In this document: piece after piece, positions 25,156 to 43,337 of the stretch
Numbering within the stretch: position 1 is the stretch's first letter
Layout of the letters: the number at the start of each line of letters is the position of its first letter
Assembly (NCBI GenBank): GCA_003045895.1
Contig: PZPC01000001.1
Coordinates: 62,001 to 126,000, forward strand
Origin: Bacteroidota bacterium
Lineage (GTDB): Bacteria > Bacteroidota > Bacteroidia > Chitinophagales > Saprospiraceae
Direction: 5' to 3'
DNA length: 64,000 bases
Notes under the pieces: generated by a model
Told to the model about the DNA's origin: nothing
Databases searched by the model: none
What the model saw: the letters and a program-made list of their open reading frames with translations, nothing else
Position numbers and translations under genes: made by a program

Positions 25156-25667
25156 AGTGTTTTAAGTGCTTAACTATTGTCCTGAATCCAAGCCTTTAAG
25201 CTCCTTTTAGAAAGCTAATTAAGCTTGATTTTAAAAATGAAAGTTAAGTCGAATGTCAATAAGACATTCGATTGTTAACTACCCGTAAGTTTCAATAAAA
25301 GGGGGATACCAATCACATAGTACCTGCCCGTTTTTCATGGATATGAACTGGCGGTGAAATTGAGAAACGGTTGTGATATGAATGGAAGGGGGGGGGTTAA
25401 GGCAATACACGAAAAAAAGTTACCAAAGTAAATACTAAGGCACTAGTAGGTATACTTAACAAGGGGTGGGGGGGATGTTTTAGAATACAATTATACGAAA
25501 AAAAAAATTAAGTTCACTCAATTTTTGGGTAAAACGACAGATATTTTTTTATAACATAATTACTGTTTTTATTTAATGCCTTTTAAGTTTAGTCTGCAAC
25601 AACTCCTGCTTTTAACTAAAATGTGGGAAGGTTTATTATTTTTTTATGATAATTTTTGAGGCCAGGC
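25156..25667. other. AT-rich intergenic region upstream of the polysaccharide operon
   Basis: About 510 nt without a gene. It lies between the 3' end of the PPTase gene and the first polysaccharide gene, both on the minus strand, so it should hold the operon promoter and leader. It contains homopolymers (a G9 run near 25388, a G7 run near 25468, an A11 run near 25498) and the strong inverted repeat listed separately. I did not find a full TTG/TAnnTTTG promoter match on the minus strand. Confidence 0.6.
25242..25280. promoter_or_regulatory. Interrupted 15-bp inverted repeat in the polysaccharide operon leader
   Basis: Two nested perfect arms, AGTTAA...TTAACT (6 bp) and TCGAATGTC...GACATTCGA (9 bp), surround the loop AATAA. 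They are separated by a small asymmetric bulge (G versus TTG). It lies about 90-125 nt upstream of the first gene of the 25-kb operon. It could be a dyad operator for a dimeric regulator or a stable leader hairpin in the mRNA. There is no following U-tract, so a simple terminator is unlikely. Confidence 0.6.
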
Positions 25668-26481: not shown

Positions 26482-27099
26482 ATGGTTACCAGCGAATTGA
26501 TCATTGAAACAGCAACAAAGTTATTTATCACACACGGGGTAAAAAGCATTACCATTGATCGGATCGTGAAGGAATTACATACTTCAAAAAGGACCATCTA
26601 CAGCCATTTCGAAGATAAGATCACCCTTTTGCGCGCCTGTCTGGATGTGTACCACACCAAGATCAGGGTCGAAAACGAAGAAATCATCCAGTCGGCCGAC
26701 AATGTGATCGAGGCCATGGGGTTGCTTCACCAAAGGATTGTTCAACGGTCGCACCAGGTCAACCCCAATTTTTTTAGTGATATCATCCACTACTACCCCG
26801 GTTTGTTGAACGAATCTTATGAGCAAAACGGCAATTTTGCCCACCAGCAGCTGATCGACCTGGCGCAGTGGGGGCTGGAAGCCGGGATTTTTGTGGAAGA
26901 CATGGATGTGGAAGTGGTGGGTAAAACCGTTATGGTGATGCTCAAATTGCTGAAAGATAACAACCTGTTTCCGGTCACCGAGTTCAGCAAGGAAAGATTG
27001 ACTTTTGGTATCCTCGTGCCCTATTTACGGGGGCTTTGTACGCCGGAAGGTATTGAGTTGCTCCAGGTCCAGGAAGAACTTTTCCGGGTCTCTATTTAA
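26482..27099 (+). CDS. TetR/AcrR-family transcriptional regulator
   Basis: 205 residues. The N-terminal helix-turn-helix domain spans about residues 5-50 (ELIIETATKLFITHGVKS, then TIDRIVKELHTSKRTIYSHF), a clear TetR pattern. The C-terminal ligand domain is not diagnostic. It is followed after 24 nt by the PUFA-synthase genes on the same strand and faces the PPTase gene, so it probably controls this locus, possibly by sensing an acyl-CoA. I could not identify a convincing operator. Its ligand and sign of regulation are unknown. Confidence 0.9.
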   Translation: MVTSELIIETATKLFITHGVKSITIDRIVKELHTSKRTIYSHFEDKITLLRACLDVYHTKIRVENEEIIQSADNVIEAMGLLHQRIVQRSHQVNPNFFSDIIHYYPGLLNESYEQNGNFAHQQLIDLAQWGLEAGIFVEDMDVEVVGKTVMVMLKLLKDNNLFPVTEFSKERLTFGILVPYLRGLCTPEGIELLQVQEELFRVSI

Positions 27100-27123: not shown

Positions 27124-30100
27124 ATGAATCTTAACTCCTCCTTACAGAAAACCCCCATTGCCGTCATTGGTATGTCCGCCATCTTTGCTGATGCCCGTAA
27201 CCTCGAAGAATTCTGGACCAACATCATCCAGTCGAAAGACAGCATCAAGGAGGTTCCCGCCAATCGCTGGCTCATTGAAGATTACTACGACGAAGACATG
27301 TTCGCGCCGGACAAGACCTACTGCAAACGCGGCGGTTTTTTGCCGGAGATTGACTTCAATCCCCTGGAGTTTGGCTTACCCCCCAATATCCTGGAGGTGA
27401 CCGATGCTTCCCAGCTGCTCGGCCTGGTTGCTGCCCGCGATGCCCTCGCGGATGCCGGCTACGGCCAGGATGCGGCTAAATTTACCAAAGCGCTGAAAGA
27501 AAAAACCGGTGTTTTGTTGGGCGTTGGTGGGGGCCAGAAATTGATCACCCCGCTGATTGCCCGCCTCCAGTATCCCATCTGGGAGCGCGCCCTGCGCGCC
27601 AGTGGGATCTCGGAAACGGACATTCCCCGGATCGTTGATAAAATGAAGAAGGCTTACGTTAGCTGGAATGAAAATGCGTTCCCCGGCTTGCTGGGCAATG
27701 TGATTTCCGGCCGTATCACCAATCGCTTCGACCTTGGCGGCATCAATTCGGTGGTGGACGCCGCCTGCGCCGCCTCGCTGAGTGCCATCAAAATGTCGTT
27801 GAGTGAACTGGTGGAAGGCCGCTGTGACATGATGCTGACGGGTGGTGTAGATACGGACAACTCACCCTTTATGTTCATGTCCTTCAGCAAGACGCCCGCC
27901 TTCTCGAAGTCGGGCAACATCAGCCCCTTCAGCGATGCCGCGGACGGGATGTTGATCGGCGAAGGATTGGGCATGCTGGTCTTAAAGCGATTGGCTGATG
28001 CCGAACGCGATGGCGACCAGATCTACGCGGTAGTTAAGGGCGTAGGTACCTCCAGCGATGGTCGGTTCAAATCGGTTTACGCACCGCGCCCGGCCGGGCA
28101 GGCCCTGGCCATGAGCCGCGCTTACGAAGATGCCGGTTACGCTCCCGCCACGGTGGGTTTGCTGGAAGGCCACGGTACGGGTACCGGCGCGGGCGACCCC
28201 ACGGAATTTACGTCTATGCAGATGGTCTTCGGTGCCGACAATCCCCGCAAGCAAAGTATCGCCCTGGGATCGGTGAAATCGCAGATCGGACACACCAAAG
28301 CAGCAGCTGGTGCAGCGGGTATCATCAAGATGGTATTGGCCCTGCACCACAAAGTACTGCCCGCGACGATCAACGTCGAAAAACCCAACCATAAATTTGA
28401 CATCGAAGAATCGGCGATGTACATCAATACCGAAACCCGTCCCTGGTTACGCAACGGCCATCCCCGCCGGGCTGGCGTCAGTGCTTTTGGTTTTGGTGGA
28501 ATCAATGTACACCTGACCATGGAGGAGTACCTGGGCCCGCAAGCACAGGCCTACCGCCTGCACGAGCCCTACAAGACGGTGCTGTTGCAAGCCGCCAGCG
28601 TGGCCGAACTGCAACAAGCCTGCCGGGTAGCACAGGCGCAAATGCAAGGTGCGGAACCCGACGATGCTTTTGTGGCATTGGCACAGGCGGCTAAAAACAT
28701 AACTTTAAATCCCGCTCAGCCCCGCCTCGGTTTCGTAGCCGAAAATTGGGAAGAAGCGGTTGCGTTGTTACAAATCGCAGTCGATAACCTGGCCACCAAC
28801 GCCAATGCCTGGAACCATCCTAAAGGTATTTACTTCCGGTCCAGCGGCGTGAATCTGGCCGAACAAAAGGTAGTCGCCCTTTTTTCCGGACAGGGTTCCC
28901 AGTACGTGGGCATGGGCAAGGAATTGGCCAATGCTTTTCCGGAAGTGGCGCAAACCTTTGCCCAGACCGATACCTTGTTCCAGGCCAGTGGCGAAGCGCC
29001 CCTGTCGGAGCAGGTATTCCCGATTCCCGTGTTTTCCAAGGAAGAAAAATTAGCGCAACAGCGCACCCTCACCCAGACCCAGCTGGCGCAGCCCGCCATT
29101 GGTACCCTCAGCATGGGGCAGTACCGCGTGCTGCAAAGGGCTGGTTTCAAGGCTCAACTGACTGCGGGTCACAGCTTCGGCGAACTCACGGCCCTCTGGG
29201 CAGCGGGCGCCTATGACGACGCCACCTTCCTGGCCCTGGCCAAGGCCCGGGGAGCCGCCATGACCACGGCTAATCCGGGTGCCGATACGGGGAGTATGCT
29301 CGCCGTTAAAGCCCCCGAAGCACAGGTCGCACAAGCTATTGCCAACCTGCCCGGCGTGGTGATCGCCAACGTCAATTCCAACGACCAGGTCGTACTCGGT
29401 GGCAGCACCCCGGCGATCAAAGCGGCCGAGGAACAGTTGGGTGCCCAGGGATTTGCCGTCGTGCCCTTGTCGGTAGCAGCCGCGTTCCACACCAGCTTTG
29501 TAGGCCATGCCCAGCAGCCCTTCTCCAGCGTGGTTCAGCAGCAGCAGTTTAATAGCCCGCAGCTTCCCGTGTACGCCAACACCACCGGCGAGGTCTACCC
29601 CGTTGCGGTACCCGCGCTGAAAACATTGCTGGCCAACCAGCTCTTACAACCCGTTTTGTTTAAAAAACAAATCGAAAACATTTACCGGGACGGTGGTCGC
29701 ATCTTCGTAGAATTTGGCCCCAAAGGCATCCTTACCCACCTGGTGGAAAATATCCTGAAAGACCAGGAACACGTGGCCGTTGCCCTGAACCCGAACGCCA
29801 GAAAAGATAGCGACCTGCAATTCCGGCAGGGTGTGGTGCAGTTGCAGGTGCTGGGGCTACCCCTGGCCAACCTGGATCCTTACAAGAAAATGATGGTTCC
29901 GCTGCCGCCGAAGTCCAAGCTGACGGTTAAACTCAGTGGCAACAACTTCGTGTCCGCAACCACCCAACAAGCCTATGAAGAGGTGATGACCGATGGCTTT
30001 CAAGTGGCCGGAGGATCACCCCGGGTGGTGGAGAAAATCGTAACGGTAGAAAAGATCGTGGAGGTCCCCGTTACCAATGGTGTGCAGGTTCACACCACAA

Positions 30101-32094
30101 ATGAAGAAGAAATGATGAACAAAGAAGCCCTCCAGTTGCTACAGGCAACCATTGAATCGTTCCAAACCAACCAGACGAAGTCTTTGGAGATTTTCGAACG
30201 TTTCCTGCAGGAGCAAAACCAGCAGTCGCAACAGTTGCTGCAAATTTTAGCCCAGCAAATGCCGGGCGCTGCGCCGGTGCCGGCCGCTAAGCCTAACCCG
30301 CTGGTGAGCAATGGGGCGCCCAGCGTGCCGGAAATGCCTCTTTATACCAATGGAAATAACGGCCGTAACGGAAAAGCAACTGCGGCAGCCACGCTGACGG
30401 TTCCTGCTCCGGCAACGGCAGCTCCTGCTGCTGGTAGTGGCCTGGATCTTAATAAGCTGACTGCTATGCTGCTGACCGTGGTCAGCGAAAAGACGGGCTA
30501 CCCGGCCGAGATGCTGGACCTGTCCATGGACATGGAAGCCGACCTCGGCATCGACTCCATCAAGCGGGTAGAAATTTTTGGCGCCCTGACGCAGCAGTAC
30601 CCCGCCATTTCGGGCATCAACCCGAACGAACTGACGGAACTGCGCACGCTGGCGGAAATCGTCAGCTACGTAGGTGGCAAAGGGGGCGCTACGGCGGCCA
30701 AAGCTACTGCGCCAGCCGCAGTTCAGCCAACACCTGCACCAGCGGTAGCGGCAACGCCGGCACCAGTGGCAGCAGCACCAGCACCCACGACAACGGGTCT
30801 GGACCTGACCGAACTCACCGCCAAATTGCTGGCCGTAGTGAGCGAAAAGACGGGCTATCCGGCCGAGATGCTGGACCTGTCGATGGACATGGAAGCCGAC
30901 CTCGGCATCGACTCCATCAAGCGGGTAGAAATTTTTGGCGCCCTGACGCAGCAGTACCCCGCCATTTCGGGCATCAACCCGAACGAACTGACGGAACTGC
31001 GCACGCTGGCGGAAATCGTCAGCTACGTAGGTGGCAAAGGGGGCGCTACGGCGGCCAAAGCTACTGCGCCAGCCGCAGTTCAGCCAACACCTGCACCAGC
31101 GGTAGCGGCAACGCCGGCACCAGTGGCAGCAGCACCAGCACCCACGACAACGGGTCTGGACCTGACCGAACTCACCGCCAAATTGCTGGCCGTAGTGAGC
31201 GAAAAGACGGGCTATCCGGCCGAGATGCTGGACCTGTCGATGGACATGGAAGCCGACCTCGGCATCGACTCCATCAAGCGGGTAGAAATTTTTGGCGCCC
31301 TGACGCAGCAGTACCCCGCCATTTCGGGCATCAACCCGAACGAACTGACGGAACTGCGCACGCTGGCGGAAATCGTCAGCTACGTAGGTGGCAAAGGGGG
31401 CGCTACGGCGGCCAAAGCTACGGCACCAGCCGCAGCTCAGCCAACACCTGCACCAGCGGCCGTATCAACACCAGCACCCACGACTACGGGTCTGGATCTG
31501 ACCGAACTCACCGCCAAGTTGCTGGCTGTAGTGAGCGAAAAGACGGGCTACCCGGCCGAGATGCTGGACCTGTCGATGGACATGGAAGCCGACCTCGGCA
31601 TCGACTCCATCAAGCGGGTAGAAATTTTTGGCGCCCTGACGCAGCAGTACCCCGCCATTTCGGGCATCAACCCGAACGAACTGACGGAACTGCGCACGCT
31701 GGCGGAAATCGTCAGCTACGTAGGTGGCAAAGGGGGCGCTACGGCGGCCAAAGCTACGGCACCAGCCGCAGCTCAGCCAACACCTGCACCAGCGGCCGTA
31801 TCAACACCAGCACCCACGACTACGGGTCTGGATCTGACCGAACTCACCGCCAAGTTGCTGGCTGTAGTGAGCGAAAAGACGGGCTACCCGGCCGAGATGC
31901 TGGACCTGTCGATGGACATGGAAGCCGACCTCGGCATCGACTCCATCAAGCGGGTGGAAATTTTTGGCGCCCTGACGCAGCAGTACCCCGCCATGTCGGG
32001 CATCAACCCGAACGAACTGACGGAACTGCGCACGCTGGCCGAGATTGTCAACTACGTAGACCAGCACAGTAAAAAAAAAATGCTAGCGCAATAG
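27124..32094 (+). CDS. pfaA: PUFA synthase subunit PfaA, N-terminal part: KS-AT-ACPx5
   Basis: 1656-residue iterative type I polyketide/fatty-acid synthase. The ketosynthase (about 10-470) has Cys215 in DAACAASL, His350 in GHGTGTG and His390 in KSQIGHTK. The malonyl-type acyltransferase (about 575-870) has Ser684 in GHSFGE and His789 in AAFHTSF. A linker contains the PfaA-typical VEKIVEVPV. Five acyl-carrier domains follow, with phosphopantetheine Ser at 1145, 1264, 1383, 1495 and 1607 in LGIDSIKR. Canonical PfaA continues into KR and DH, but this reading stops four residues after a poly-Lys stretch encoded by an A10 run. The missing domains are in the next reading frame. It should build PUFAs from malonyl-CoA with the PfaC and PfaD proteins. 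Confidence 0.93.
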   Translation: MNLNSSLQKTPIAVIGMSAIFADARNLEEFWTNIIQSKDSIKEVPANRWLIEDYYDEDMFAPDKTYCKRGGFLPEIDFNPLEFGLPPNILEVTDASQLLGLVAARDALADAGYGQDAAKFTKALKEKTGVLLGVGGGQKLITPLIARLQYPIWERALRASGISETDIPRIVDKMKKAYVSWNENAFPGLLGNVISGRITNRFDLGGINSVVDAACAASLSAIKMSLSELVEGRCDMMLTGGVDTDNSPFMFMSFSKTPAFSKSGNISPFSDAADGMLIGEGLGMLVLKRLADAERDGDQIYAVVKGVGTSSDGRFKSVYAPRPAGQALAMSRAYEDAGYAPATVGLLEGHGTGTGAGDPTEFTSMQMVFGADNPRKQSIALGSVKSQIGHTKAAAGAAGIIKMVLALHHKVLPATINVEKPNHKFDIEESAMYINTETRPWLRNGHPRRAGVSAFGFGGINVHLTMEEYLGPQAQAYRLHEPYKTVLLQAASVAELQQACRVAQAQMQGAEPDDAFVALAQAAKNITLNPAQPRLGFVAENWEEAVALLQIAVDNLATNANAWNHPKGIYFRSSGVNLAEQKVVALFSGQGSQYVGMGKELANAFPEVAQTFAQTDTLFQASGEAPLSEQVFPIPVFSKEEKLAQQRTLTQTQLAQPAIGTLSMGQYRVLQRAGFKAQLTAGHSFGELTALWAAGAYDDATFLALAKARGAAMTTANPGADTGSMLAVKAPEAQVAQAIANLPGVVIANVNSNDQVVLGGSTPAIKAAEEQLGAQGFAVVPLSVAAAFHTSFVGHAQQPFSSVVQQQQFNSPQLPVYANTTGEVYPVAVPALKTLLANQLLQPVLFKKQIENIYRDGGRIFVEFGPKGILTHLVENILKDQEHVAVALNPNARKDSDLQFRQGVVQLQVLGLPLANLDPYKKMMVPLPPKSKLTVKLSGNNFVSATTQQAYEEVMTDGFQVAGGSPRVVEKIVTVEKIVEVPVTNGVQVHTTNEEEMMNKEALQLLQATIESFQTNQTKSLEIFERFLQEQNQQSQQLLQILAQQMPGAAPVPAAKPNPLVSNGAPSVPEMPLYTNGNNGRNGKATAAATLTVPAPATAAPAAGSGLDLNKLTAMLLTVVSEKTGYPAEMLDLSMDMEADLGIDSIKRVEIFGALTQQYPAISGINPNELTELRTLAEIVSYVGGKGGATAAKATAPAAVQPTPAPAVAATPAPVAAAPAPTTTGLDLTELTAKLLAVVSEKTGYPAEMLDLSMDMEADLGIDSIKRVEIFGALTQQYPAISGINPNELTELRTLAEIVSYVGGKGGATAAKATAPAAVQPTPAPAVAATPAPVAAAPAPTTTGLDLTELTAKLLAVVSEKTGYPAEMLDLSMDMEADLGIDSIKRVEIFGALTQQYPAISGINPNELTELRTLAEIVSYVGGKGGATAAKATAPAAAQPTPAPAAVSTPAPTTTGLDLTELTAKLLAVVSEKTGYPAEMLDLSMDMEADLGIDSIKRVEIFGALTQQYPAISGINPNELTELRTLAEIVSYVGGKGGATAAKATAPAAAQPTPAPAAVSTPAPTTTGLDLTELTAKLLAVVSEKTGYPAEMLDLSMDMEADLGIDSIKRVEIFGALTQQYPAMSGINPNELTELRTLAEIVNYVDQHSKKKMLAQ
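30439..32067 (+). repeat. Five tandem ACP-coding repeats in two near-identical sub-families
   Basis: The carrier-protein units repeat with periods of 357, 357, 336 and 336 nt, measured between identical GAAAAGACGGG marks (30487, 30844, 31201, 31537, 31873). Units 2 and 3 and their preceding linkers look identical at DNA level, as do units 4 and 5 with theirs up to the last few codons. The two linkers differ: one carries an extra APVAA-type segment. This implies recent duplication or gene conversion within two classes. Confidence 0.95.
32071..32080 (+). other. A10 slippery run joining pfaA N- and C-terminal reading frames
   Basis: Ten consecutive A residues are read as AAA AAA AAA A in the frame of the KS-AT-ACP gene, which then ends MLAQ-stop. 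A -1 shift on A_AAA_AAA continues as Asn-Ala-Ser-Ala-Ile-Ala-Val-Pro-Val-Pro into the KR-DH frame, with no stop. The fused product would be 2485 residues with canonical PfaA domain order. An A11 run would give the same fusion without recoding. Programmed frameshifting, transcriptional slippage, phase variation and an indel error are all compatible with the sequence. Confidence 0.7.
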
Positions 32095-32102
32095 CCGTAC
32101 CG

Positions 32103-32143
32103 GTTCCCGTGGCTGCTTCGCCCAATGAGGTGACCACGGGAAC
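32103..32143 (+). promoter_or_regulatory. Stem-loop burying the GTG start of the KR-DH frame
   Basis: GTTCCCGTGG (32103-32112) and CCACGGGAAC (32134-32143) form a perfect 10-bp GC-rich stem with a 21-nt loop, 22 nt after the A10 run. The only early start codon for separate translation of the KR-DH frame, GTG at 32109, lies inside the 5' arm and has no Shine-Dalgarno sequence. The structure would hinder independent initiation and might assist frameshifting, although it is further from the slippery site than classical stimulators. Confidence 0.5.
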
Positions 32144-34580
32144 GTTTTACGGGGTGAACCGCTTCGCCGTAGAATTGGCTTACCTGCCGCAACCCGATTT
32201 CCTGGAATTTAGCCTGCCCACTACCCATTGTGTGCTGGTGACCAATGACGGCACGGAACTGACCACCACGGTGGTTGCAGCGTTGCGCGCTGCCGACCAG
32301 CGGGTAGTGGTACTCAACCTGCCGAACGTGGCTAATCCGCTGGCGGAACAGGCCGTGAACCTCGCCGCTTCTACCGACGAAGCTATCGGCACCGCGGTGC
32401 AGGCCATCCAGACGCAGTACGGCAAGATTGGTACCTTCATCCACTTGCATCCGCACTTCGAATTCCAATCCGGGAATTTTACCCAACACTTTTCCGCTGA
32501 CAAAGCCATTGTTAAGACCGTCTTCTTCCTGGCCAAGCATTTGCAAAAAGACCTCAATGAACTGGGGGCTACCCAACGTGCCAGCTTCCTGACCGTCACC
32601 CGGCTGGATGGCCAACTGGGGCAAGGCCAGCGCGGCAATACCTCCATTATCGGCGGCGGACTCCCGGGCCTGGTCAAATGCCTCAACCTGGAATGGTCGC
32701 CGGTTTTCTGCCGGGCCGTTGATCTCCAACCGGAATTGCCCATTGACCAAATTACGCGGCACATCGTAGCAGAATTGCACGATCCCAACGTAACGGTCGT
32801 GGAAGTTGCCGTGTCGGCTGACGGGCGCAAGACACCGGTAGCAAAAGCTACGCCAGTACCGGAAAAGCAAAAGATCACCACTACCGTCACCAGCAATTCC
32901 GTCTTTTTGGTCAGCGGCGGCGCCCGCGGCGTTACGGCTACCTGCGTGATTGAGATGGCCAAAACCTTCCGCTGTAAGTTCATCTTACTGGGGCGTTCGT
33001 CCTTCGATTACGTGGTGCCCGCTTTTGCGCAAGCCGAAAATGACGAAGGCATCCTGAAGCGCCTGATCATGAACGACCTGAAGGAACGGGGCGAGCAACC
33101 CAGCCTGGCCAAGGTCAAAAGTACCTTTGGGGATATTGTAGCCAAAAAAGAAATTGACGATACCGTGGCCCAGATCGAAGGATTTGGCGGACAGGTGGTT
33201 TACGTACAGGGCGATGTGACCCAATTGGCCGCCTGCCGGCAGGAGCTTGACCGGGCTACGGCCCAGTTGGGCAAAATTACCGGCATCATGCACGGTGCGG
33301 GCCGATTGGCTGATAAATACATCCAGGATAAAACCGAGAAAGATTTCGAAAATGTCTTGTCGGTAAAACTCGATGGCCTGCTGAGCTTGTTGGGAGCCGT
33401 CAAATTAGGCGATCTCGACCACCTGATTCTGTTCTCTTCCGTAGCCGGTTTTTACGGCAACGTAGGCCAAACGGACTATGCCATTGCCAACGAGATCCTC
33501 AGCAAGGCCGCTCACTTGTTCCGCACCAACCACCCCCGTACCCAGGTCTCAGCCATCAACTGGGGCGCCTGGGACAGCGGCATGGTGAGCGGGGAACTGA
33601 AAGCCCAGTTTGAGGCCGCCGGGATTAGCCTGGTCAATAGCGCTGGTGGTGCAGCCATGCTGGTCAACGAGTTGAGTACTGCTTACGCCAACCAACCGCA
33701 AGTGATCATCGGCGGTACTTTGCCCGCTGCCATCAGCCACCTCGGCGACCTGCGCAACTACCGCATTCGCCGCCATTTGACGCTCGACAATAACCCGTTT
33801 CTGCGGGACCACGTCATTCAGGGAAATCCGGTATTGCCCGTCGTTAGCGGGGCCAGTTGGATGGCACAGACCGCGGCCAGCCTGTATCCCGATTATACGA
33901 TCTTCAAAATTGAGGACATCAAACTGTTCAAAGGCATCATCTTCGACGGCAGCGAGAAAGAAGCCTACGTACTCGAATTAAAGGAACTGGACAAGGGGGC
34001 GGAACAGGTCGTTTTTGAGGCCACGATTTTCAGTGAGGGGGGCAAATTACCCACCAACCACTACCGTGCCCGCGTCACGCTGGTACACAAGCAGCAACTG
34101 CCGCTGGCACCCCACTTTACGCACCAGATCAGCGGTACTTACGCCCCCACCGCGGGTGCCACCCTCTACCAGGATGGCTCGCTGTTTCACGGGGCTTCCT
34201 TCCAGGGCATCGGGCAGGTGCTCGACTGTACGCCCACGCAGATGGTCTTGTCGTGTCAGGCACCGGCGGTTTCGCTGGCCACGCAGGGACAGTTTCCCGT
34301 AGCAGCCATCAACGCTTATTTTGCCGATATTCAGTACCAGGGTATGTTGGTGTGGGTACAAAAAAACCGCGACGGCGCCAACAGCTTGCCCCTGCAAACC
34401 GATAGTGCGGTATTTTACCAGCCCATTCCGATCGGGAAAAAGCTATTGGTACACATTGGTATCGTGGAAGCCACGGAAACCCAGATGGTCGCCAATTGCA
34501 CCGTTTATGACGAGGCCGGCACCGTGTACGTTGTAACCCGCGGCGCGGCCGTGACCATTTCACGGCAGTTGGTGTGGTAA
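32109..34580 (+). CDS. PUFA synthase PfaA, C-terminal part: ketoreductase-dehydratase
   Basis: 823 residues from GTG. After a divergent N-terminal Rossmann-like half, the KR nucleotide loop VSGGARGVTA lies near residue 267. Catalytic Ser444 and Tyr457 are in FSSVAGFYGNVGQTDYAIA. A polyketide-type hot-dog dehydratase follows, with His568 in RDHVIQGNPVLPV, and extends to the C-terminus. In known Pfa systems these domains are the C-terminal part of PfaA, so this frame is probably expressed as a -1 extension of the preceding gene. The frame is open upstream to within the A10 run and encodes an Ala/Pro/Val linker there. If translated alone it would be a separate KR-DH protein working in trans. Confidence 0.88.
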   Translation: MAASPNEVTTGTFYGVNRFAVELAYLPQPDFLEFSLPTTHCVLVTNDGTELTTTVVAALRAADQRVVVLNLPNVANPLAEQAVNLAASTDEAIGTAVQAIQTQYGKIGTFIHLHPHFEFQSGNFTQHFSADKAIVKTVFFLAKHLQKDLNELGATQRASFLTVTRLDGQLGQGQRGNTSIIGGGLPGLVKCLNLEWSPVFCRAVDLQPELPIDQITRHIVAELHDPNVTVVEVAVSADGRKTPVAKATPVPEKQKITTTVTSNSVFLVSGGARGVTATCVIEMAKTFRCKFILLGRSSFDYVVPAFAQAENDEGILKRLIMNDLKERGEQPSLAKVKSTFGDIVAKKEIDDTVAQIEGFGGQVVYVQGDVTQLAACRQELDRATAQLGKITGIMHGAGRLADKYIQDKTEKDFENVLSVKLDGLLSLLGAVKLGDLDHLILFSSVAGFYGNVGQTDYAIANEILSKAAHLFRTNHPRTQVSAINWGAWDSGMVSGELKAQFEAAGISLVNSAGGAAMLVNELSTAYANQPQVIIGGTLPAAISHLGDLRNYRIRRHLTLDNNPFLRDHVIQGNPVLPVVSGASWMAQTAASLYPDYTIFKIEDIKLFKGIIFDGSEKEAYVLELKELDKGAEQVVFEATIFSEGGKLPTNHYRARVTLVHKQQLPLAPHFTHQISGTYAPTAGATLYQDGSLFHGASFQGIGQVLDCTPTQMVLSCQAPAVSLATQGQFPVAAINAYFADIQYQGMLVWVQKNRDGANSLPLQTDSAVFYQPIPIGKKLLVHIGIVEATETQMVANCTVYDEAGTVYVVTRGAAVTISRQLVW

Positions 34581-34618: not shown

Positions 34619-37600
34619 ATGACAAAAATAGCCATCATAGGAACATCGGCCCTCTTTCCGGGCTCCGCCACCCCAGAGGCGTTCTGGGAGAACCTGCTGC
34701 AGGAAAAGGACCTGACCGGTTACGCCCGCGAAGAAAATTTTGGGGTTGATCCGCAGCTTTTTTTCCAGCCGGAAAAAGGGGTCGTGGACAAGTGTTACTC
34801 CCTGCGCGGGGGGTACATCCGGGATTTTAATTTTGATCCCACCGGCTTTGCCCTGCCCGCCGATTTTTTGGCCAACCAGGACAAGCTGTACCAGTGGTCG
34901 CTGTATACTGCCCGCGAAGCTTTGCGCGACGGGGGCTACCTGACCGACGAAAATAGCCGGGCCAACTGCGGCCTGGTATTGGGTAATTTGTCTTTCCCGA
35001 CGACATCTTCTCACAAGCTGATCTCGGAGTTGTATACGGATACTTTGGAAACGGCCCTGCAAGGCTTATTGGAGGACCCCAACTTTAGCCTCACCACGTA
35101 CCGGGGCGATGCGCCTCCCAACGAAGTGCTGGCTTATACGCCCTCCGCAATGGTGACCGAGGCCCTCGGCCTGCAGGTCAACAACCACTACGCCCTCGAC
35201 GCGGCCTGTGCCACGTCGCTCTACGCGATCAAGCTGGCTTGTGACGAACTGGTCACGGGCAAAGCAGACCTGATGCTGGCCGGCGCCGTCAGCGCCTCCG
35301 ACCAGTTGTTTATCCACATGGGCTTCTCTATTTTTCACGCCTATGCGGCCAACGATAAGAAATTTGTGCCTTTCGATAAAAATTCTGCGGGTCTGGTTTC
35401 GTCAGAAGGAGCGGGGATGGTGTTGCTCAAGCGGTTGGCCGACGCCGAGCGCGACGGCGACCGAATTCTGGGCGTAATTGGTGGCATTGGCTTGTCCAAC
35501 GACGGGCGGGGAAAGTTCCTCCTCAGCCCCAACCCCAAGGGCCAGCAACTGGCCTTTGAGCGGGCCTACGCGGCAGCGGATATCTCCGCCGCCGACACTT
35601 CTTACCTGGAATGCCACGCAACGGGTACCCCGCTGGGCGATGTGACGGAACTGAATTCTATTGCCGATTTTTTCGCCCCCCACCATACTACCCCTCTGCT
35701 GGGTTCCGTCAAGTCGAATATGGGCCACTTGCTGACGGCGGCCGGGATGACGGGCCTGCTAAAAGTATTAATGGCCATGCAGCGCGGCGTGGTACCGCCC
35801 AGCATCAACCTGGCCGATCCGCTACAGCCGGACAACCACTGGCCCAAAGGGGCCAATATGATCACCCAGGCTACGCCCTGGGTGGGTGATCACCTGCAGG
35901 CAGGCATCAATTCTTTTGGCTTTGGCGGCACGAATGCCCACATGGTGGTGCAGCAATACCAGCAGCACCAGGCGGAGCAGGCTACCGCCACGCCACTCGT
36001 GCCGCGGCAACCGCTGGCCATCGTAGGGATGGATGCCCATTTTGGCGACTGCCAGGGGCTGGCCGATTTTTACGCGACCATCTACCACGGGCGGCAACAT
36101 TTTAAACCCCTGCCTCCCCAGCGGTGGAAAGGTATGGAAGCCAACAGCGATTTGCTGACGCGCTATGGTTTTGCCGACGGGCAAGCCCCGCACGGCGCCT
36201 ACATTGATGCCTTTGAAATTGATTTACTCCGCTATAAAATTCAGCCTAAAGAAGCCGAACGGCTGCATCCCCAGCAGGCGCTCCTGCTCCAGGTCGCCGA
36301 CAACGCCATCAAGGACGCTGGCCTGGCGGAACAACAAAACGTAGCCGTGCTGGTGGCCATGGAAACGGAGTTGGCCATTCACCAGTGCCTAGCGCGCTGG
36401 GACGTGAGTTGGCAGGTCAAAGAAGCCCTGGAACAGCGCCAGTTGGTGTTGGACGAAGCCCAGGAAGCGGAGTTGATCCAGCTCTGCCAGCGGGCCGTTT
36501 ACCACCGCGAGGGCACTCCCGCACCAAGCGAATTTACCAGTTTCATTGGCAACCTCATGGCGAGTAGGGTAGCGGCCCTGTGGGATTTTTCCGGCCCGGC
36601 CTTTACGGTGTCTTGTGGCGAGAACTCCTTGTTCAAAGCCCTGGAAATTGCACAAAATATGCTATCTCAGGGCGAGGTGGATGCCGTCGTCGTGGGCGCC
36701 GTCGACTTTTCCGGGGGCATCGAAAACGTACTTCTGCGCAACTTGCAGGACCCCGTTAATACGGCCGCTAACCCGAGTATGTCTTTCAATACCAACGAAC
36801 ACGGCTGGTTAGTGGGCGAAGGCGCTGGCGCCATCGTCCTGAAGCGGGTCAGCGACAGCCAGGCGGACCGGGTCTATTCGGTTATCGATGACATCGGACC
36901 GGCGCAACCCCTCGCTACCGGGGGCTACCTGGAGCTGGCTGCTACCGGTATTGCTACACAAGACCAGGCAGAGTTACAATTGTTGCTGCACCACCAGGCG
37001 CCGGCAGCGGTAGCCCTGGGTTCGGTAAAAGCAAATATTGGCCATACCTACGCGGCGGCGGGCATGGCCAGCCTAATTAAAACGGTGTTGTGTGTACACC
37101 ACCGCTTTATTCCCGGCATCCCCAATTGGAAGGCGCCCCAGGCGGCGGCTGATTTTGCGCCGACGGCCTACTATTTTCCGGCCCAGGCACGTCCCTGGCT
37201 GCTCGGGGAGGGGCAGTCTCGGCGCTACGCTGCGGTAAATGGGATGGATGGATTGCAGATTCGGTTGTCGGCGGTCAGCGAAACGCCAGCCGTGGCTTCC
37301 GACTTCCTCCAGCATCAGGCTCCGCAGCTGTTGGTCTTGTCGGGCCACGACGAGGCAGCATTGCGCGGGCAATTGACCGCTCTGGCCAGTGCGCTGGCGG
37401 CAGGGGAGGAGCTGACCCAATTGGCGGCCCAGTGCTACCAGACCTTTAAATCTCACCAAGGCAACCGGCGGTTGGTTCTCCTCGCGGCACAGCCCGCTGA
37501 CCTGGCACGCGAAATTCAGTTTTTCCAAAGCCAACTGACCGCCGCCTGGCAAAACAACCAGGTGCTAAAAACGCCCCGCGGGAGTTACTTTACCCCCAGT

Positions 37601-40600
37601 CCGCTGGGTGAAAAAGGCCAGGTGGCCTTCGTCTACCCCGGATCGGCTACGGCCTACACCGGACTCGGACAGGATCTCTTTCAATATTTTCCGCAACTGC
37701 TGAGCCAATTCGAACAGCGAGTCGGGCACATCGACGCCTTCGTCGGGTCTGATTACCTGTTCCCCAAAATGCAAAGCACGGCGGATCCGGTTCCCGATAT
37801 TTACCAGGACGCGATTGCCATGATGTCGGCGGGGGTTTTTTATTCGGCGGTCTACACGGAACTGCTGCGTACCGCTTTTAAACTGGAACCCGCAATGACC
37901 TTTGGCTACAGCATGGGCGAATGCAGCAGCATGTGGTACGCGCTGAACGTGTGGCACCCGGATGGAGCCGGAAAATTCCGCGAGTCGCCGATCTTCAAGA
38001 ACCGCTTTGCCGGCGACCTGGAGCTGCTGGCCGAGCATTGGCAGATCGATACCGAAGAAGCCAAAGCACGCTGGATCAGCCTGGTTCTGCTGGCCCCTAA
38101 AGCCCAGGTGGAAGCGCTGTTGGTGGGTAAGGAGAAGGTCTACCTGACCTTTATCAATACCGATAATGAGGTGATCATTTCCGGCGACAAGGCCACCTGC
38201 CTGGCTATTGCTGAACAGTTGGCCTGCCCCGTGGTTGCCATTCCGTTCCAGAATATCATCCACCAGGATTTTTGTATCAAAGAAGAAGCGGGCTTGTTGG
38301 ACATGCACCACTTTCCCTTGTCGGCGGAACCCGCCATCGATTTTTACTCCAGCATTACCCAGGCGAAGATGGGCTTCAACAGCCAGGAAATTGCGGAAAA
38401 CTCCGTGGCCGTTTGTGCCCAACAGGTAGATTTTCCTACCACCGTAAAAACCGTCTACGATGCTGGTGCCCGCATCTTTGTGGAGCTGGGCGCCAATGCA
38501 ACCTGCACCAACTGGATTGCGACCAACCTGAAAGGCCAGGAACACCTGGCGGTGGCGATCAACCACAAGGGCAAAACGGATATTCAAGCGATTCTGTCCC
38601 TGTTGGCCCAGCTGGTGAGCCATGGTGTCGAGTTGGACTTGTCTATCCTTTACCCAACGGCGGTGGCGGCTACCGCGGAACGCCAGTTTTTAAAAGCCAT
38701 CATTCCGGGCGGCAGCCCCGTTTTCGACCTTTTTGCGGAAGAAACGGTGCGCGCTCGTTTTGCCAACCTAAAAAGATCCTCCGTTCCCGTACCCGTACGG
38801 GAGCCTGCGCTCGCCCTGGCGGGAGCACTTTCGGATTCATTTCCGATTGCATCAACTCATCGGACAGCCCGACCTGCGCAAGTCGAAGCTGCTCCCTTAA
38901 CCAAGCTACGCGCCCACAAAATTATGCCCGTTATGAAATCAGAAACTTTAGCGCCCGCCACTACGGCCGTGGTTGCGGACAATAAAATGGGGGAGAACGG
39001 CCTGCGTTTGCAGGACTTTACTTCCGGTGAACAGTTCGAAGGCAAAGAAATTGTCTTCTCCCAGGCTGATCTCGAAGAGTTCGCCACCGGAAAGATCGGC
39101 AAGGTCTTTGGCCCGGAATACGATATCATCGACACCTACCGGCGCCGGGTCATGCTGCCCATGTACCCGTACCTGCTGGTGAGCCGGGTGACCGCCATGA
39201 ACGCCAAACTGGGGGTTTACGAACCCTCGACCATGACCACAGAATACGATATTCCCTACGGCGCCTGGTACACCACCGACCAGCAAATTCCGGCCGCCGT
39301 CTGCGTAGAATCGGGCCAGTGCGACCTCCTGCTCATCTCTTACCTGGGCATTGACCTCAAAAGCAAGGGCGATCTCGTCTATCGCCTGCTCGACTGTACC
39401 CTGACTTTTGTCGACGACTTTCCTTACGAGGGGCAGACTTTGCGCTACGACATTTCCATTAATTCCTTCGTGAGCAACGGACCCAACCTGCTCTTCTTCT
39501 TCAGCTACCTGTGCTATGTGCAAGACCGCCTGGTGTTGAAGATGGACGGTGGCTGTGCGGGCTTTTTTGCCGACGACCAGCTGGTGGATGGCGCCGGCGT
39601 GGTGTACGCCAAAAGTGAAATTGAAGCCCGCCTGAATGCGGAGCGCAAATATTTTACCCCCCTGCTGACCACCAGGAAGACGGCCTTTTCCAAGGCCGAC
39701 CTCCAACACCTGATTGACGGCAACATTGAAAAATGTTTCGACGATATTTCCTATTTCGCCAACGGTCGCAACCCCTCCCTGCGCATTCCGCCGGAAAAAA
39801 TCCTGATGCTGGACCGCATCACCTCGGTAGACATCACCGGGGGCGCCTACGGACTGGGCACCATCGTGGCCGAAAAAGATTTGCATCCCGACGACTGGTA
39901 TTTCCCCTGCCACTTCCGCGATGATGAAGTACTGGCGGGCTCCCTGCAAGCTGAAGGAGGTGGCAACCTCCTGCGCTTCTTTATGCTCATGCTCGGGTTG
40001 CAACGCCTGACCAAAGATGCCCGCTTTCAGCCGGTCTTCGACCAGCCCCAGCGGGTGCGCTGCCGCAAGCAGGTGACGCCCACCAAGGATACCAAGCTCA
40101 TCTACAAGCTGGAGATCAAAGAAATCGGGCTGTTTCCCCATCCGTACGTTATCGGTGACCTGGAAATTATTTCCGACGGCATCATTACGGTACACTTCGA
40201 AAACCTGGGTTTGCAACTGCGCGAAAAGTCGAACCCCAAGTACCTGGACCCCAACGATGGGGTGTACATCAGCCCCCGTTCGGCAGGCGCCTTGATGAAC
40301 GAAAAAGACATCACCACCTTTGCCCTGGGCAACATGACCGACTGCTTCGGTCCGGAATACGCGGTGTACAACAACCGCAAAACGTCGCGCCAGCCCAATT
40401 CGGACCTGCAGCTGATCTCGCGCATCCTGAAAGTGGACGGTACCCGCGGCGACTTCTCCCGGCCCTCCACCATCTTCGCCGAGTACGACGTGCCGGTGGA
40501 TGCCTGGTACTACGAGCAGAATTCGGCGATTACCATGCCCTATTCCATGCTCATGGAGATTGCTCTCCAACCTTGTGGCTTGTTGGGCGCCTACCTGGGG

Positions 40601-41440
40601 AGCACCTTGCAGTTTCCCGACATGGAGCTCTTTCTCCGCAACCTGGACGGCGACGGGGAGACCTTCGACCTGCCTACGGGCACCGACTTCCGGGGCAAGA
40701 CCATCGCCAACAAGTCGGTATTAACCTCTTCCATTGCCCACGGCGGCACCATCCTGCAGCGCTACACCTTTGAGCTGTCTATCGACGGGGCTGTCTTCTA
40801 CCGGGGCAATTCCTCCTTTGGGTTCTTTACCGCCGAGGCCCTCGCTTCGCAGGCGGGTCTGGACAAAGGTGCGGAGGTGCCAGCCTGGTACGTGACGCAG
40901 CAGCTGGCGCCCAAAGACTACTTCCAGGTGAAACTGGACTCCCTTTACGGGAAAATGAAACTGTTGAAAGCACCCGCCGATAAGCCCCACTACCGGCTGG
41001 CTGAGGATCAGTTGAACCTGTTGGACAACCTGATCATCGCCAAAGGCCAGGGGCAGTATGGCCAGGGCTACGTGCACGCTACCAAATTCGTAAAAACCTA
41101 CGACTGGTTCTTCACCTGCCACTTCTACCAGGATCCGGTGATGCCGGGTTCGTTGGGCGTAGAGTCCATCTTGCAGGCTATGCAGGTATTTGCGCTGCAG
41201 CAGGATTTGGGCAAAGCCTTCAAGTCACCAAAATTCGTCCACTTACCCAACCACAAAACGGTTTGGAAATACCGCGGACAGATCTTATTGCCCGTGCAGG
41301 AGATGCACCTGGAGGCCCACATCAAGTCGGTAGAAATGCGGGGCAACCAACTGGTCCTGATCGCGGATGCTTATTTGTGGAACAACAAGATGCGCATTTA
41401 CCAGATCACGGATCTGGCATTGGGGATGGAAGAGAGCTGA
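34619..41440 (+). CDS. pfaC: PUFA synthase subunit PfaC with integrated acyltransferase: KS-CLF-AT-DH-DH
   Basis: 2273 residues. The active ketosynthase (about 1-460) has Cys197 in DAACATSL and HATGT and SNMGH His motifs. The chain-length-factor domain (about 465-870) has FTVSCGENSLF, where the alignment puts Gly at the active Cys position. An acyltransferase (about 1000-1400) has Ser1098 in GYSMGE, resembling PfaB. Four FabA-like hot-dog units follow (about 1460-2270). Units two and four keep catalytic His (H1765 in FPCHF, H2168 in FTCHF). Units one and three lack it, so there are two double-hot-dog dehydratases. Shewanella keeps the AT on separate PfaB, whereas myxobacterial Pfa3 has it fused between CLF and DH as here. 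The ATG follows AAGGGA. Confidence 0.92.
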   Translation: MTKIAIIGTSALFPGSATPEAFWENLLQEKDLTGYAREENFGVDPQLFFQPEKGVVDKCYSLRGGYIRDFNFDPTGFALPADFLANQDKLYQWSLYTAREALRDGGYLTDENSRANCGLVLGNLSFPTTSSHKLISELYTDTLETALQGLLEDPNFSLTTYRGDAPPNEVLAYTPSAMVTEALGLQVNNHYALDAACATSLYAIKLACDELVTGKADLMLAGAVSASDQLFIHMGFSIFHAYAANDKKFVPFDKNSAGLVSSEGAGMVLLKRLADAERDGDRILGVIGGIGLSNDGRGKFLLSPNPKGQQLAFERAYAAADISAADTSYLECHATGTPLGDVTELNSIADFFAPHHTTPLLGSVKSNMGHLLTAAGMTGLLKVLMAMQRGVVPPSINLADPLQPDNHWPKGANMITQATPWVGDHLQAGINSFGFGGTNAHMVVQQYQQHQAEQATATPLVPRQPLAIVGMDAHFGDCQGLADFYATIYHGRQHFKPLPPQRWKGMEANSDLLTRYGFADGQAPHGAYIDAFEIDLLRYKIQPKEAERLHPQQALLLQVADNAIKDAGLAEQQNVAVLVAMETELAIHQCLARWDVSWQVKEALEQRQLVLDEAQEAELIQLCQRAVYHREGTPAPSEFTSFIGNLMASRVAALWDFSGPAFTVSCGENSLFKALEIAQNMLSQGEVDAVVVGAVDFSGGIENVLLRNLQDPVNTAANPSMSFNTNEHGWLVGEGAGAIVLKRVSDSQADRVYSVIDDIGPAQPLATGGYLELAATGIATQDQAELQLLLHHQAPAAVALGSVKANIGHTYAAAGMASLIKTVLCVHHRFIPGIPNWKAPQAAADFAPTAYYFPAQARPWLLGEGQSRRYAAVNGMDGLQIRLSAVSETPAVASDFLQHQAPQLLVLSGHDEAALRGQLTALASALAAGEELTQLAAQCYQTFKSHQGNRRLVLLAAQPADLAREIQFFQSQLTAAWQNNQVLKTPRGSYFTPSPLGEKGQVAFVYPGSATAYTGLGQDLFQYFPQLLSQFEQRVGHIDAFVGSDYLFPKMQSTADPVPDIYQDAIAMMSAGVFYSAVYTELLRTAFKLEPAMTFGYSMGECSSMWYALNVWHPDGAGKFRESPIFKNRFAGDLELLAEHWQIDTEEAKARWISLVLLAPKAQVEALLVGKEKVYLTFINTDNEVIISGDKATCLAIAEQLACPVVAIPFQNIIHQDFCIKEEAGLLDMHHFPLSAEPAIDFYSSITQAKMGFNSQEIAENSVAVCAQQVDFPTTVKTVYDAGARIFVELGANATCTNWIATNLKGQEHLAVAINHKGKTDIQAILSLLAQLVSHGVELDLSILYPTAVAATAERQFLKAIIPGGSPVFDLFAEETVRARFANLKRSSVPVPVREPALALAGALSDSFPIASTHRTARPAQVEAAPLTKLRAHKIMPVMKSETLAPATTAVVADNKMGENGLRLQDFTSGEQFEGKEIVFSQADLEEFATGKIGKVFGPEYDIIDTYRRRVMLPMYPYLLVSRVTAMNAKLGVYEPSTMTTEYDIPYGAWYTTDQQIPAAVCVESGQCDLLLISYLGIDLKSKGDLVYRLLDCTLTFVDDFPYEGQTLRYDISINSFVSNGPNLLFFFSYLCYVQDRLVLKMDGGCAGFFADDQLVDGAGVVYAKSEIEARLNAERKYFTPLLTTRKTAFSKADLQHLIDGNIEKCFDDISYFANGRNPSLRIPPEKILMLDRITSVDITGGAYGLGTIVAEKDLHPDDWYFPCHFRDDEVLAGSLQAEGGGNLLRFFMLMLGLQRLTKDARFQPVFDQPQRVRCRKQVTPTKDTKLIYKLEIKEIGLFPHPYVIGDLEIISDGIITVHFENLGLQLREKSNPKYLDPNDGVYISPRSAGALMNEKDITTFALGNMTDCFGPEYAVYNNRKTSRQPNSDLQLISRILKVDGTRGDFSRPSTIFAEYDVPVDAWYYEQNSAITMPYSMLMEIALQPCGLLGAYLGSTLQFPDMELFLRNLDGDGETFDLPTGTDFRGKTIANKSVLTSSIAHGGTILQRYTFELSIDGAVFYRGNSSFGFFTAEALASQAGLDKGAEVPAWYVTQQLAPKDYFQVKLDSLYGKMKLLKAPADKPHYRLAEDQLNLLDNLIIAKGQGQYGQGYVHATKFVKTYDWFFTCHFYQDPVMPGSLGVESILQAMQVFALQQDLGKAFKSPKFVHLPNHKTVWKYRGQILLPVQEMHLEAHIKSVEMRGNQLVLIADAYLWNNKMRIYQITDLALGMEES

Positions 41441-41509: not shown

Positions 41510-43129
41510 ATGGCTTTACAGTATAGCGGGACACCGCAGCAACTTTTTTGGCAGGGATCGCCCCGCGACATCGTCTTCGACGCGGCCGGCATCCAGGAAA
41601 AGCTGGCGCAGACCGACCAGCCCTGCTACGTCATGCGCGACTTCAGTGGGCGCATCGGGGTGAGCAACGGCGGCGCGCTGGTGGCGGAAGGCCGCGGCCT
41701 GCAGGTGCTGGCCCTGGCCCACCCCATGACGGCCAGCCAGCTGGGCGACCCCGGTTTTCGGGAAGATTACGGGGTAAAATATGCCTACAAGACCGGCGCA
41801 ATGGCCAACGGCATTGCTTCGGCCGACCTGGTCATTGCCATTGGCAAAGCCAATTTGCTGGCTTCCTTCGGGGCGGCGGGCCTGGTGCCGGGGCGCATTG
41901 CCGAAGCCCTAAAAAAGATCAAAGCTGAGCTGCCACACCAGACTTACGCCGTCAACCTGATCCACTCGCCGGTGGAGGCTGCGTTGGAAGCGGGGGCCGT
42001 GCAGTTGTTTCTGGACCAGGGTATCCGGGTGGTGGAAGCATCGGCCTTTCTGGCGCTCACCGAGCACATCGTCTACTACCGCGTGGCGGGTCTGAGCCGG
42101 GGTGCCGACGGGCAGGTCCTGATCGGCAACAAGGTGATCGCCAAAATTTCCCGCAGGGAAGTAGCGGCCCCCTTCATGCAGGCGCCCCCGCCTGCGCTGG
42201 TAGCTGCTTTGCTGGAGCAGGGCAAGATCACGGCTTTGCAGGCCGAACTCGCCCAGCACGTGCCCATGGCCGACGACATTACCGTGGAGGCCGACTCCGG
42301 TGGGCATACCGACAACCGGCCCCTGGTAGCGCTCTTACCCATTATTATCCAGTTGCGCGACGAACTGCAGGCCAGGCATGGCTTTGCGCAGAAAATCCGC
42401 ATTGGGGCCGCCGGCGGTATCGGCACGCCCGCGGCTGCTCTGGCGGCGTTCATGATGGGGGCGGCTTACGTGGTCACCGGTTCGGTGAACCAGGCTTGTG
42501 TGGAGGCGGGCACTTCGGAACACGTCAGGAAGCTCCTGCAAACCGTCGATTCGACCGACGTCATGGGGGCGCCAGCTTCGGACATGTTCGAGATGGGCGT
42601 CGAATTGCAGGTACTGAAGCGGGGCAGCCTCTTCGGGCCGCGCGCCAAGAAATTGTACGAATATTACCAGCGCTACCGCTCCATCGACGAGATTCCTGAG
42701 GAGGAGCGTACCAAGCTGGAAAAGCAGCTCTTCCGCAGGCCACTGGAAGAGATCTGGCAGGAGTGCATCCAGTTCTTTGCCGAGCGAGACCCCGAGCAGA
42801 TCGCCCGCGCGCAGGACAATCCCCACCGCAAAATGGCGCTGATCTTCCGCTGGTACCTGGGCTTGTCGTCCAACTGGGCCAACGCGGGCACACCCACCCG
42901 GGAGCTGGATTACCAGATCTGGTGCGGGCCAGCCATGGGTGCCTTCAACGACTGGGTCAGGGGTTCCTACCTCGAAGACTACCAGAACCGCCGCGTGGCC
43001 GACGTCGCCGAGCAGCTCATGCAGGGCGCCGCCTATTTGTACCGGATCCAGAGCCTGAAGCTGCAAGGGGTGCAGTTTTCGGTGGCGCTGGCGCAGGCGC
43101 AGGTGAAGGAGGTGGAATTGGTGGGTTAA
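41510..43129 (+). CDS. pfaD: PfaD-type trans-acting enoyl reductase
   Basis: 539 residues, normal for PfaD. It is an FMN-binding TIM-barrel protein of the nitronate-monooxygenase/2-nitropropane-dioxygenase superfamily. The phosphate-binding region is IGAAGGIGTPAAALAAF followed by MGAAYVVTGSVNQA. TVEADSGGHTDNRPL and the C-terminal QEC..FFAERDP region follow known PfaD proteins. It reduces enoyl intermediates in trans during PUFA assembly, and selective use of this step leaves cis double bonds. It is the last gene of the pfa operon, 69 nt after pfaC. Confidence 0.93.
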   Translation: MALQYSGTPQQLFWQGSPRDIVFDAAGIQEKLAQTDQPCYVMRDFSGRIGVSNGGALVAEGRGLQVLALAHPMTASQLGDPGFREDYGVKYAYKTGAMANGIASADLVIAIGKANLLASFGAAGLVPGRIAEALKKIKAELPHQTYAVNLIHSPVEAALEAGAVQLFLDQGIRVVEASAFLALTEHIVYYRVAGLSRGADGQVLIGNKVIAKISRREVAAPFMQAPPPALVAALLEQGKITALQAELAQHVPMADDITVEADSGGHTDNRPLVALLPIIIQLRDELQARHGFAQKIRIGAAGGIGTPAAALAAFMMGAAYVVTGSVNQACVEAGTSEHVRKLLQTVDSTDVMGAPASDMFEMGVELQVLKRGSLFGPRAKKLYEYYQRYRSIDEIPEEERTKLEKQLFRRPLEEIWQECIQFFAERDPEQIARAQDNPHRKMALIFRWYLGLSSNWANAGTPTRELDYQIWCGPAMGAFNDWVRGSYLEDYQNRRVADVAEQLMQGAAYLYRIQSLKLQGVQFSVALAQAQVKEVELVG

Positions 43130-43133
43130 GGGG

Positions 43134-43241
43134 CGCTGGTTCAGCGTCATTTATGGCGCCGCATTTTGCTTGGTTAGATGGAAGTGTTTTGGCCATGCTA
43201 AAGCTTGGCAAGCTCACACTGAAGCATGGCGAACCAGTGTG
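43134..43241 (+). other. Inverted repeats after pfaD, before the PPK2 gene
   Basis: The gap between pfaD and the PPK2 start (about 208 nt) has no convincing gene. It contains CGCTG-GTT-CAGCG (43134-43146) immediately after the pfaD stop, and CACACTG...CAGTGTG (43215-43241) with a 13-nt spacer. The first may be a weak terminator for the pfa operon, but no good U-tract follows. Confidence 0.3.
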
Positions 43242-43337
43242 CAGGCCTCTAGCGGGTGGGCATGGCCCCAAAATATGCAGCACGGCACAAAAATGCCAGA
43301 AAAATACCTATTTTTAGCTGATAACCCAATCCTTACC

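Follow-up and report, generated by a model that had tools for sequence, protein, structure and literature searches.

A single pfaA gene probably joined by a programmed -1 slip, with two slip-site designs among its bacterial relatives

Introduction

In Escherichia coli dnaX, ribosomes shift by -1 at the heptamer A_AAA_AAG, so that one gene yields a short and a long product; a stem-loop lies downstream of the site. Here, we describe a comparable break in pfaA, a polyunsaturated fatty acid (PUFA) synthase gene found in a stretch of 64,000 nucleotides (the window; assembly GCA_003045895.1, contig PZPC01000001.1, positions 62,001 to 126,000 of the forward strand) from a Bacteroidota bacterium of the family Saprospiraceae. 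Comparison with relatives makes it very likely that pfaA here is a single gene whose ACP array and KR-DH half are linked by a programmed -1 slip, and that two designs of slip site occur among relatives and give the same pair of products. The window itself would most likely rely on slippage at a run of ten A (A10) by RNA polymerase, the ribosome or both.

Several described systems come close to this arrangement. In Thermus thermophilus dnaX, the gamma product is made by slippage of RNA polymerase at nine T, and stops lie nearby in both non-zero frames (PMC5009743). The same account describes efficient slippage of RNA polymerase at runs of 9 A or T, mentions two lysine tRNAs as a possible reason why Thermus avoids the ribosomal way of E. 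coli, and reports some dnaX genes with reversed polarity, in which the shift makes the long product and the zero-frame stop lies directly past the site (PMC5009743). It also covers magnesium chelatase, with overlapping open reading frames (ORFs), a conserved A_AAA_AAR shift site, purifying selection and a potential downstream structure of poorly conserved sequence (PMC5009743). In the Type D pfa clusters of Psychroflexus torquis, Ulvibacter and Aureispira marina, KS-AT-ACP5 and KR are carried by "split" ORFs next to a fused pfaBC (KS-CLF-AT-DH2), the same layout as in the window (PMC3098273, PMC4882568).

Nine of the relatives described below, all with six A, share the heptamer of E. coli dnaX, whereas the window gene differs from dnaX in encoding a megasynthase and in having an A10 run. 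Similarly to Thermus dnaX, the window combines a homopolymer of at least nine (A10) with nearby stops in both unused frames; however, the long product is in frame in Thermus and needs a slip in the window, and the Thermus polarity is seen in five relatives from another family (f25). Like magnesium chelatase, pfaA is a metabolic gene whose overlapping ORFs are joined at an A-rich shift site, but the enzyme is another one, and the section on that system mentions no exchange of a long run for a short heptamer (PMC5009743). The Type D papers differ in that, in their available text, the halves are treated as separate genes: they were published as pfaA1 [KS-AT-ACP5] and pfaA2 [KR] (PMC3098273), and the KR region of A. 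marina was described as separate from pfaA (PMC4882568).

The two halves of pfaA meet at an A10 run

The zero-frame ORF of pfaA (positions 27124 to 32094, forward strand; 1,656 amino acids) starts at ATG 27124 and encodes KS, MAT and five tandem ACP domains according to Pfam. It ends with ...QHS-KKK-MLAQ-stop in the window translation, the C terminus of the predicted short product. At the ACP-KR boundary, the forward strand carries exactly ten A (32071 to 32080) and, within them, an in-frame A_AAA_AAA heptamer (32073 to 32079) containing the zero-frame codons AAA 32074-32076 and AAA 32077-32079. After this site, the zero frame is closed after 4 codons by TAG (32092 to 32094, forward strand) and the +1 frame after one codon by another TAG (32084 to 32086, forward strand), so that both unused frames are stopped. 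The -1 frame is open from the A10 run itself. It reads KK-NASAIAVPVPVAA... and continues through an Ala/Pro/Val linker, a KR and a PKS-type DH domain (32079 to 34580, forward strand) as far as the stop at 34578-34580, which adds 833 amino acids after the slip. The gene caller placed a GTG-started ORF for the KR half only from 32109 (823 amino acids).

A PfaA split at an A10 run had been proposed in an earlier sequence-only reading of the window, and this was borne out: the NCBIfam PfaA model TIGR02813 is shared between the two ORFs, its best-matching stretches being model positions 1-1055 in ORF 1 and 1755-2577 in ORF 2. The lengths given there, 1,656 residues for the KR-less form and 2,485 for the complete protein, were also correct, since the predicted fusion comprises 1,652 + 833 amino acids. 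The same reading had placed the stop 12 nt after the A run; the stop does lie just past the run, but 11 bases separate it from the last A, and the 12-nt distance is that from the heptamer.

Two hairpins are predicted on the forward strand downstream of the site, one of about -24 kcal/mol at 32103 to 32143, beginning 23 nt past the heptamer, and a weaker one of -10.9 kcal/mol with a possible start at 32086, 6 nt past the heptamer. There are only 61 A10 matches in the 5.57 Mb of the window's own genome (both strands, overlapping matches counted separately), so an A10 run precisely at the ACP-KR boundary is already unusual; what decides the matter is that relatives show the break at this very boundary. 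A second A10 run in the window (25498-25507) lies between ORFs ending at 25155 and starting at 25668 and is apparently intergenic.

The slip site is conserved at the same domain boundary

We collected pfaA junctions from several sets of genomes. Scanning named genomes, an approach limited to close relatives, yielded 36 loci, all of them labelled Bacteroidota and mostly Saprospiraceae. Thirty-four of them were split by -1, L028 was in frame, and L018 was unreadable, its contig starting inside the run. In a survey of the window's family, 59 of 398 genomes matched the KR half and 55 loci were fetched, many of them duplicates of named-genome loci: 53 were in -1, one was in +1 (L091) and one (L057, a contig-edge case) could not be read. 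The remaining family matches were left out, G024, G187 and G208 because they start at a contig edge past the junction and G116 because it is a different long synthase. A search of a plasmid collection added two Persicobacter records. Wider samples (class, phylum and orders), meant to reach distant relatives such as Psychroflexus, gave little. Six of 395 genomes matched in the class sample, namely the window's own and five in-frame loci of family f25; these same five loci accounted for the 5 of 7 matching genomes in the order of G420. The phylum sample returned only the window's own genome among 395, and the order of G437 returned none among 330, an empty answer that shows little.

The first junction table held 101 loci including duplicates: 92 had the -1 relation, 6 were in frame, 1 was in +1 and 2 were left unread. 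Later counts omit L021 and its duplicate L058 (Phaeodactylibacter), since their assembly has an earlier in-frame TAG inside the last ACP; L021 nonetheless has the usual A9 and -1 break. Junctions that matched fully or at more than 97% over 140 nt were then merged, and with Persicobacter added, 60 distinct junctions remained. All of these lie at the same domain boundary, with 52 split by -1, 7 in frame and 1 in +1. A -1 heptamer (A_AAA_AAA, A_AAA_AAG or G_GGA_AAG) was present in the ACP frame at the boundary in 60/60 distinct junctions, whereas the remainder of these ORFs, 95,066 codons in all, contains 30 of them. This comparison strongly supports the earlier suggestion that slippage at A_AAA_AAA would join the halves and give a short and a full-length product.

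The run itself was 3 nt long in four junctions (G3A3), 6 in nine, 9 in 19, 10 in 27 and 11 in one, and lengths 7 and 8 were found in none of the 60. The gap between heptamer and zero-frame stop was exactly 9 nt in 33 of the 52 split loci and 15 nt at most. Moreover, 28 of 51 split loci have ACP and KR frames that overlap by no more than 25 nt, which confines the shift to the run. At the 47 sites with long runs, 134 of 141 lysine codons were AAA, compared with 4,441 of 6,018 elsewhere in these ORFs; 40 of these sites read AAA-AAA-AAA and 7 read AAA-AAA-AAG. The Aureispira-labelled junctions that we could read (L030, L032, L033 and L039) are not those of the strains named in the Type D papers.

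Short heptamers with a stem-loop and long A runs with dual stops

We divided the junctions into a short type (n = 13; A_AAA_AAG with A6 in nine, G_GGA_AAG with G3A3 in four) and a long type (n = 47; A9 to A11). Downstream folding differed between them. Ranked against other stretches of the same locus, the 40 nt downstream of the site had a median fold percentile of 0.04 in the short type, with 7/13 at or below 0.05, versus a median of 0.52 in the long type (nominal one-sided Mann-Whitney P = 2e-4). A hairpin of -7 kcal/mol or stronger starting 4 to 9 nt past the heptamer was found in 12/13 short versus 17/47 long loci, and the best such hairpin started at +6 in eight short loci. The five distinct sequences of the A6 clade retain 9 to 11 of the 11 stem pairs, and two positions have changed on both sides with pairing kept. 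On the KR tree, short junctions appear in four or more separate places.

The long type was distinguished by its stops. A +1-frame stop lay within 6 codons in 40/40 long split loci (median 1 codon; background median 8), versus distances of 1 to 105 codons in the 12 short split loci (nominal P = 7e-7). When the peptide was kept fixed and synonymous codons were drawn at random, a +1 stop within 6 codons was expected in 22.0 of the 40 long split loci and observed in all 40, and a stop within one codon was expected in 11.5 and observed in 28. Stops in both unused frames were expected in 9.8 of these loci and observed in every one. The short split loci were at chance level (4/12 versus 3.4 expected). 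We also looked for upstream hairpins as stimulators of polymerase slippage and obtained no clear signal in the 47 long loci, where the median percentile was 0.39 with 30 nt and 0.41 with 45 nt and 4/47 fell at or below 0.05 in each case.

Because stem-loops accompany the short sites, whereas dual stops and long runs of the Thermus kind mark the long ones, we read the short loci as candidates for ribosomal slippage and the long loci, including the window, as candidates for polymerase slippage with a possible ribosomal share. The sequence-only reading had left open whether ribosome or RNA polymerase acts here; the comparison points to both, each in different relatives. In the window, slippage by RNA polymerase seems no less likely than slippage by the ribosome.

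Nine long loci (L027, L048, which is the window, L074, L077, L081, L082, L083, L086 and L093) have stable hairpins of -18 to -25 kcal/mol that start 16 to 36 nt past the heptamer. These lie beyond the usual distance of stimulators, and in L082 and L083, judged by eye, pairing is kept through sequence changes.

Relatives change polarity and keep the site

Seven loci (five in f25, L028 and Persicobacter sp. JZB09) retain the heptamer with the full-length frame uninterrupted. In this order, their -1 frames stop after 1, 1, 18, 11, 1, 6 and 1 codons and their +1 frames after 4, 4, 1, 1, 4, 8 and 3 codons. The split locus of Persicobacter psychrovividus and the in-frame locus of Persicobacter sp. 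JZB09 both have G_GGA_AAG. On the KR tree, no fewer than three changes are required to explain the in-frame state, including one inside Persicobacter, and four changes are needed in total if +1 is counted as a third state; 6 of the 7 in-frame loci fall outside the main 50-row clade. Such relatives would produce the short form by slipping. Since relatives swap the product that is read in frame and yet keep the slip site, both products appear to matter, and we infer that making both is itself selected.

Proposed mechanism and its alternatives

On the proposal of a programmed slip, RNA polymerase would add one A on the A10 run in a fraction of transcripts, which would then encode KS-MAT-ACP5-KR-DH; alternatively, a fraction of ribosomes would slip by -1 on A_AAA_AAA and make the same full-length chain. 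Unslipped reading would give the KR-less KS-MAT-ACP5, and messages shifted the opposite way would end after one codon. The number of ACP domains sets productivity in other PUFA synthases (PMC5067506), so a reasonable guess at the role of the short chain is that it provides each reducing unit with additional ACP-bearing chains. A broader proposition, to which we give even chances, is that a Bacteroidota PUFA synthase is built to come in two lengths from one gene and that selection acts on the ratio between KR-less KS-MAT-ACP and complete PfaA, a ratio reached by either of two machines and in either polarity; the published split pfaA of Type D would then be a single gene that is recoded. If this were true, the product ratio could tune the number of ACP chains served per reducing unit and respond to temperature.

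Several observations weigh against a programmed slip of two designs. In the window, the downstream 40-nt fold is not exceptional (percentile 0.22) and the strongest hairpin is 23 nt away. Stable downstream folds are in some excess in the long type as well (at or below 0.05 in 7/47 loci for 40 nt and 8/47 for 60 nt), and hairpins are thus not exclusive to the short type. The short locus L076 has no +6 hairpin and has its +1 stop after one codon, like the long loci. L028, with A11, is in frame inside the otherwise split main clade, as sister to the split L024, at a coverage of 4.5. L091 (G065), the sole +1 junction, has A9 and what looks by eye like a long inverted repeat downstream; it may be a genuine variant or reflect a wrong tract length in the assembly. 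Metagenome-assembled genomes make up most of the named relatives. The junctions share descent, so that the P values overstate independence, and the division into short and long types was drawn after the data were seen. Finally, a change of frame could be merely tolerated, with slippage rescuing it, instead of reflecting selection for both products.

It is possible, and we entertain it tentatively, that the slip in the window is purely ribosomal, a -1 shift on A_AAA_AAA as in E. coli dnaX without any slippage of RNA polymerase. The heptamer is in frame, and the 41 long loci that are out of frame comprise 40 at -1 and only L091 at +1, a one-sidedness expected of ribosomes; the short relatives, for their part, carry no more than A6 or G3A3, which would not suffice for polymerase slippage of the ordinary kind. 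A crude pattern test for tRNA-like sequences adds slight support, with Lys-UUU matches common, by eye, among the matches listed and a Lys-CUU match in 3 of 61 genomes (G078, G253 and G309). However, 30 of the 47 long loci are without a good hairpin at +4 to +9, all 40 long split loci close both unused frames, and lengths 7 and 8 are absent although they would be enough for a ribosomal heptamer. Polymerase, moreover, is described as slipping efficiently on 9 A or T (PMC5009743).

The other alternatives concern whether there is a slip at all. That pfaA1 and pfaA2 are two genes, with independent or coupled initiation of the KR half, agrees with the surveys that name them as two (PMC3098273, PMC4882568) and with a pfaA homologue of another clade described as truly split, with another gene between its halves (PMC13291983); the GTG at 32109 in the window could also start the 823-amino-acid ORF. 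We nevertheless regard this as unlikely. Of the 52 split loci, 44 are devoid of ATG from the slip site to the conserved KR core, and 15 lack GTG and TTG there as well, which makes separate initiation improbable. The relatives thus show no consistent normal start for the KR half, contrary to what clearly separate genes would have; nor would two genes require a conserved slippery heptamer or a constant frame relation. A homopolymer error in sequencing or assembly, with the gene in fact intact, would be natural in a draft assembly, where a long A run is the usual place for errors, and L028 and L091 may be such cases. Yet the same -1 relation holds in 52 of 60 junctions, 12 of them without a run of at least nine A, and G202 and G129 share the exact junction of L039 (Aureispira sp. 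CCB-QB1), although the same strain may be among them. Conserved dual stops and hairpins are not produced by errors either, and the break recurs at the same boundary in dozens of assemblies; an isolated error is therefore hardly credible. The sequence-only reading had further suggested that the length of the A tract might act as a phase-variable DNA switch turning full-length PfaA on and off. A10 tracts can mutate, and the in-frame L028 (A11) and the +1 L091 (A9) do sit in the main clade, but frames are not mixed as such a switch predicts (52, 7 and 1), 6 of the 7 in-frame loci lie outside that clade, and 13 loci have no long tract. As a general rule the switch is not supported, and we consider it very improbable.

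Relation to the published pfa literature

Programmed slips in cellular metabolic genes seem to be few. In the open-licence literature, we found no report of frameshifting in a PUFA synthase, in pfaA or in another megasynthase; for polyketide synthases, this negative covers the 10 papers listed of 305 matches. The word "frameshift" is absent from the text at hand of PMC3098273, and "frame" occurs once in that of PMC4882568, in "open reading frames". The available part of a survey devoted to conserved frame transitions contains none of the terms "fatty acid", "acyl carrier" and "Saprospira" and a single "polyketide", which refers to a cyclase (PMC3711429). The classes of mechanism are already known; this case is set apart by its gene, by two designs that can replace each other and by a polarity that flips.

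Hayashi and colleagues reported that E. coli with the A. marina pfa genes made little arachidonic acid and that replacement of AmpfaA by the Shewanella gene SopfaA increased production 48-fold (PMC5067506). This gain may reflect a need for the fused enzyme, although other causes are possible. If a programmed slip is right, Type D PUFA clusters have been misread, and halves cloned separately would never give the native fused enzyme. Moreover, pfaA would join dnaX as a second gene whose relatives seem to have swapped transcriptional and ribosomal slippage, and what a KR-less PfaA does would become directly testable.

The surrounding pfa cluster

A TetR-type regulator (26482-27099) precedes pfaA in the window. 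Downstream of the KR-DH half, domain profile matches identify a pfaBC-type fusion with two KS-type domains, a PfaB-type AT and two FabA-type DH domains (34619 to 41440, forward strand) and pfaD (41510 to 43129, forward strand), followed by a PPK2-type kinase gene (43170-44069). Type D clusters were described as having KS-AT-ACP5 and KR on separate ORFs and a pfaB/pfaC fusion with two DH domains (PMC3098273); in the window, KS-AT-ACP5 and KR are likewise on different ORFs, and pfaB and pfaC are fused, with two DH domains.

The KR-DH half has only one other match in the window's own genome, a weak one (E = 8.5e-4) in a frame of 247 amino acids. The other genomes of the same genus (G001, G002 and G003) have no match to the KR part at E = 1e-20, which suggests that the pfa cluster is patchily distributed or was gained. 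In three loci from the window's own family (L100 to L102, in G392, G390 and G387, respectively), the KR half groups with Persicobacter and f25, outside the main family clade, and may derive from transfer or from an old duplicate. The ACP array of the window contains a 336-bp tandem repeat (30769-32059) of 3.8 copies with 95% matches, which suggests a recent change in ACP copy number or gene conversion.

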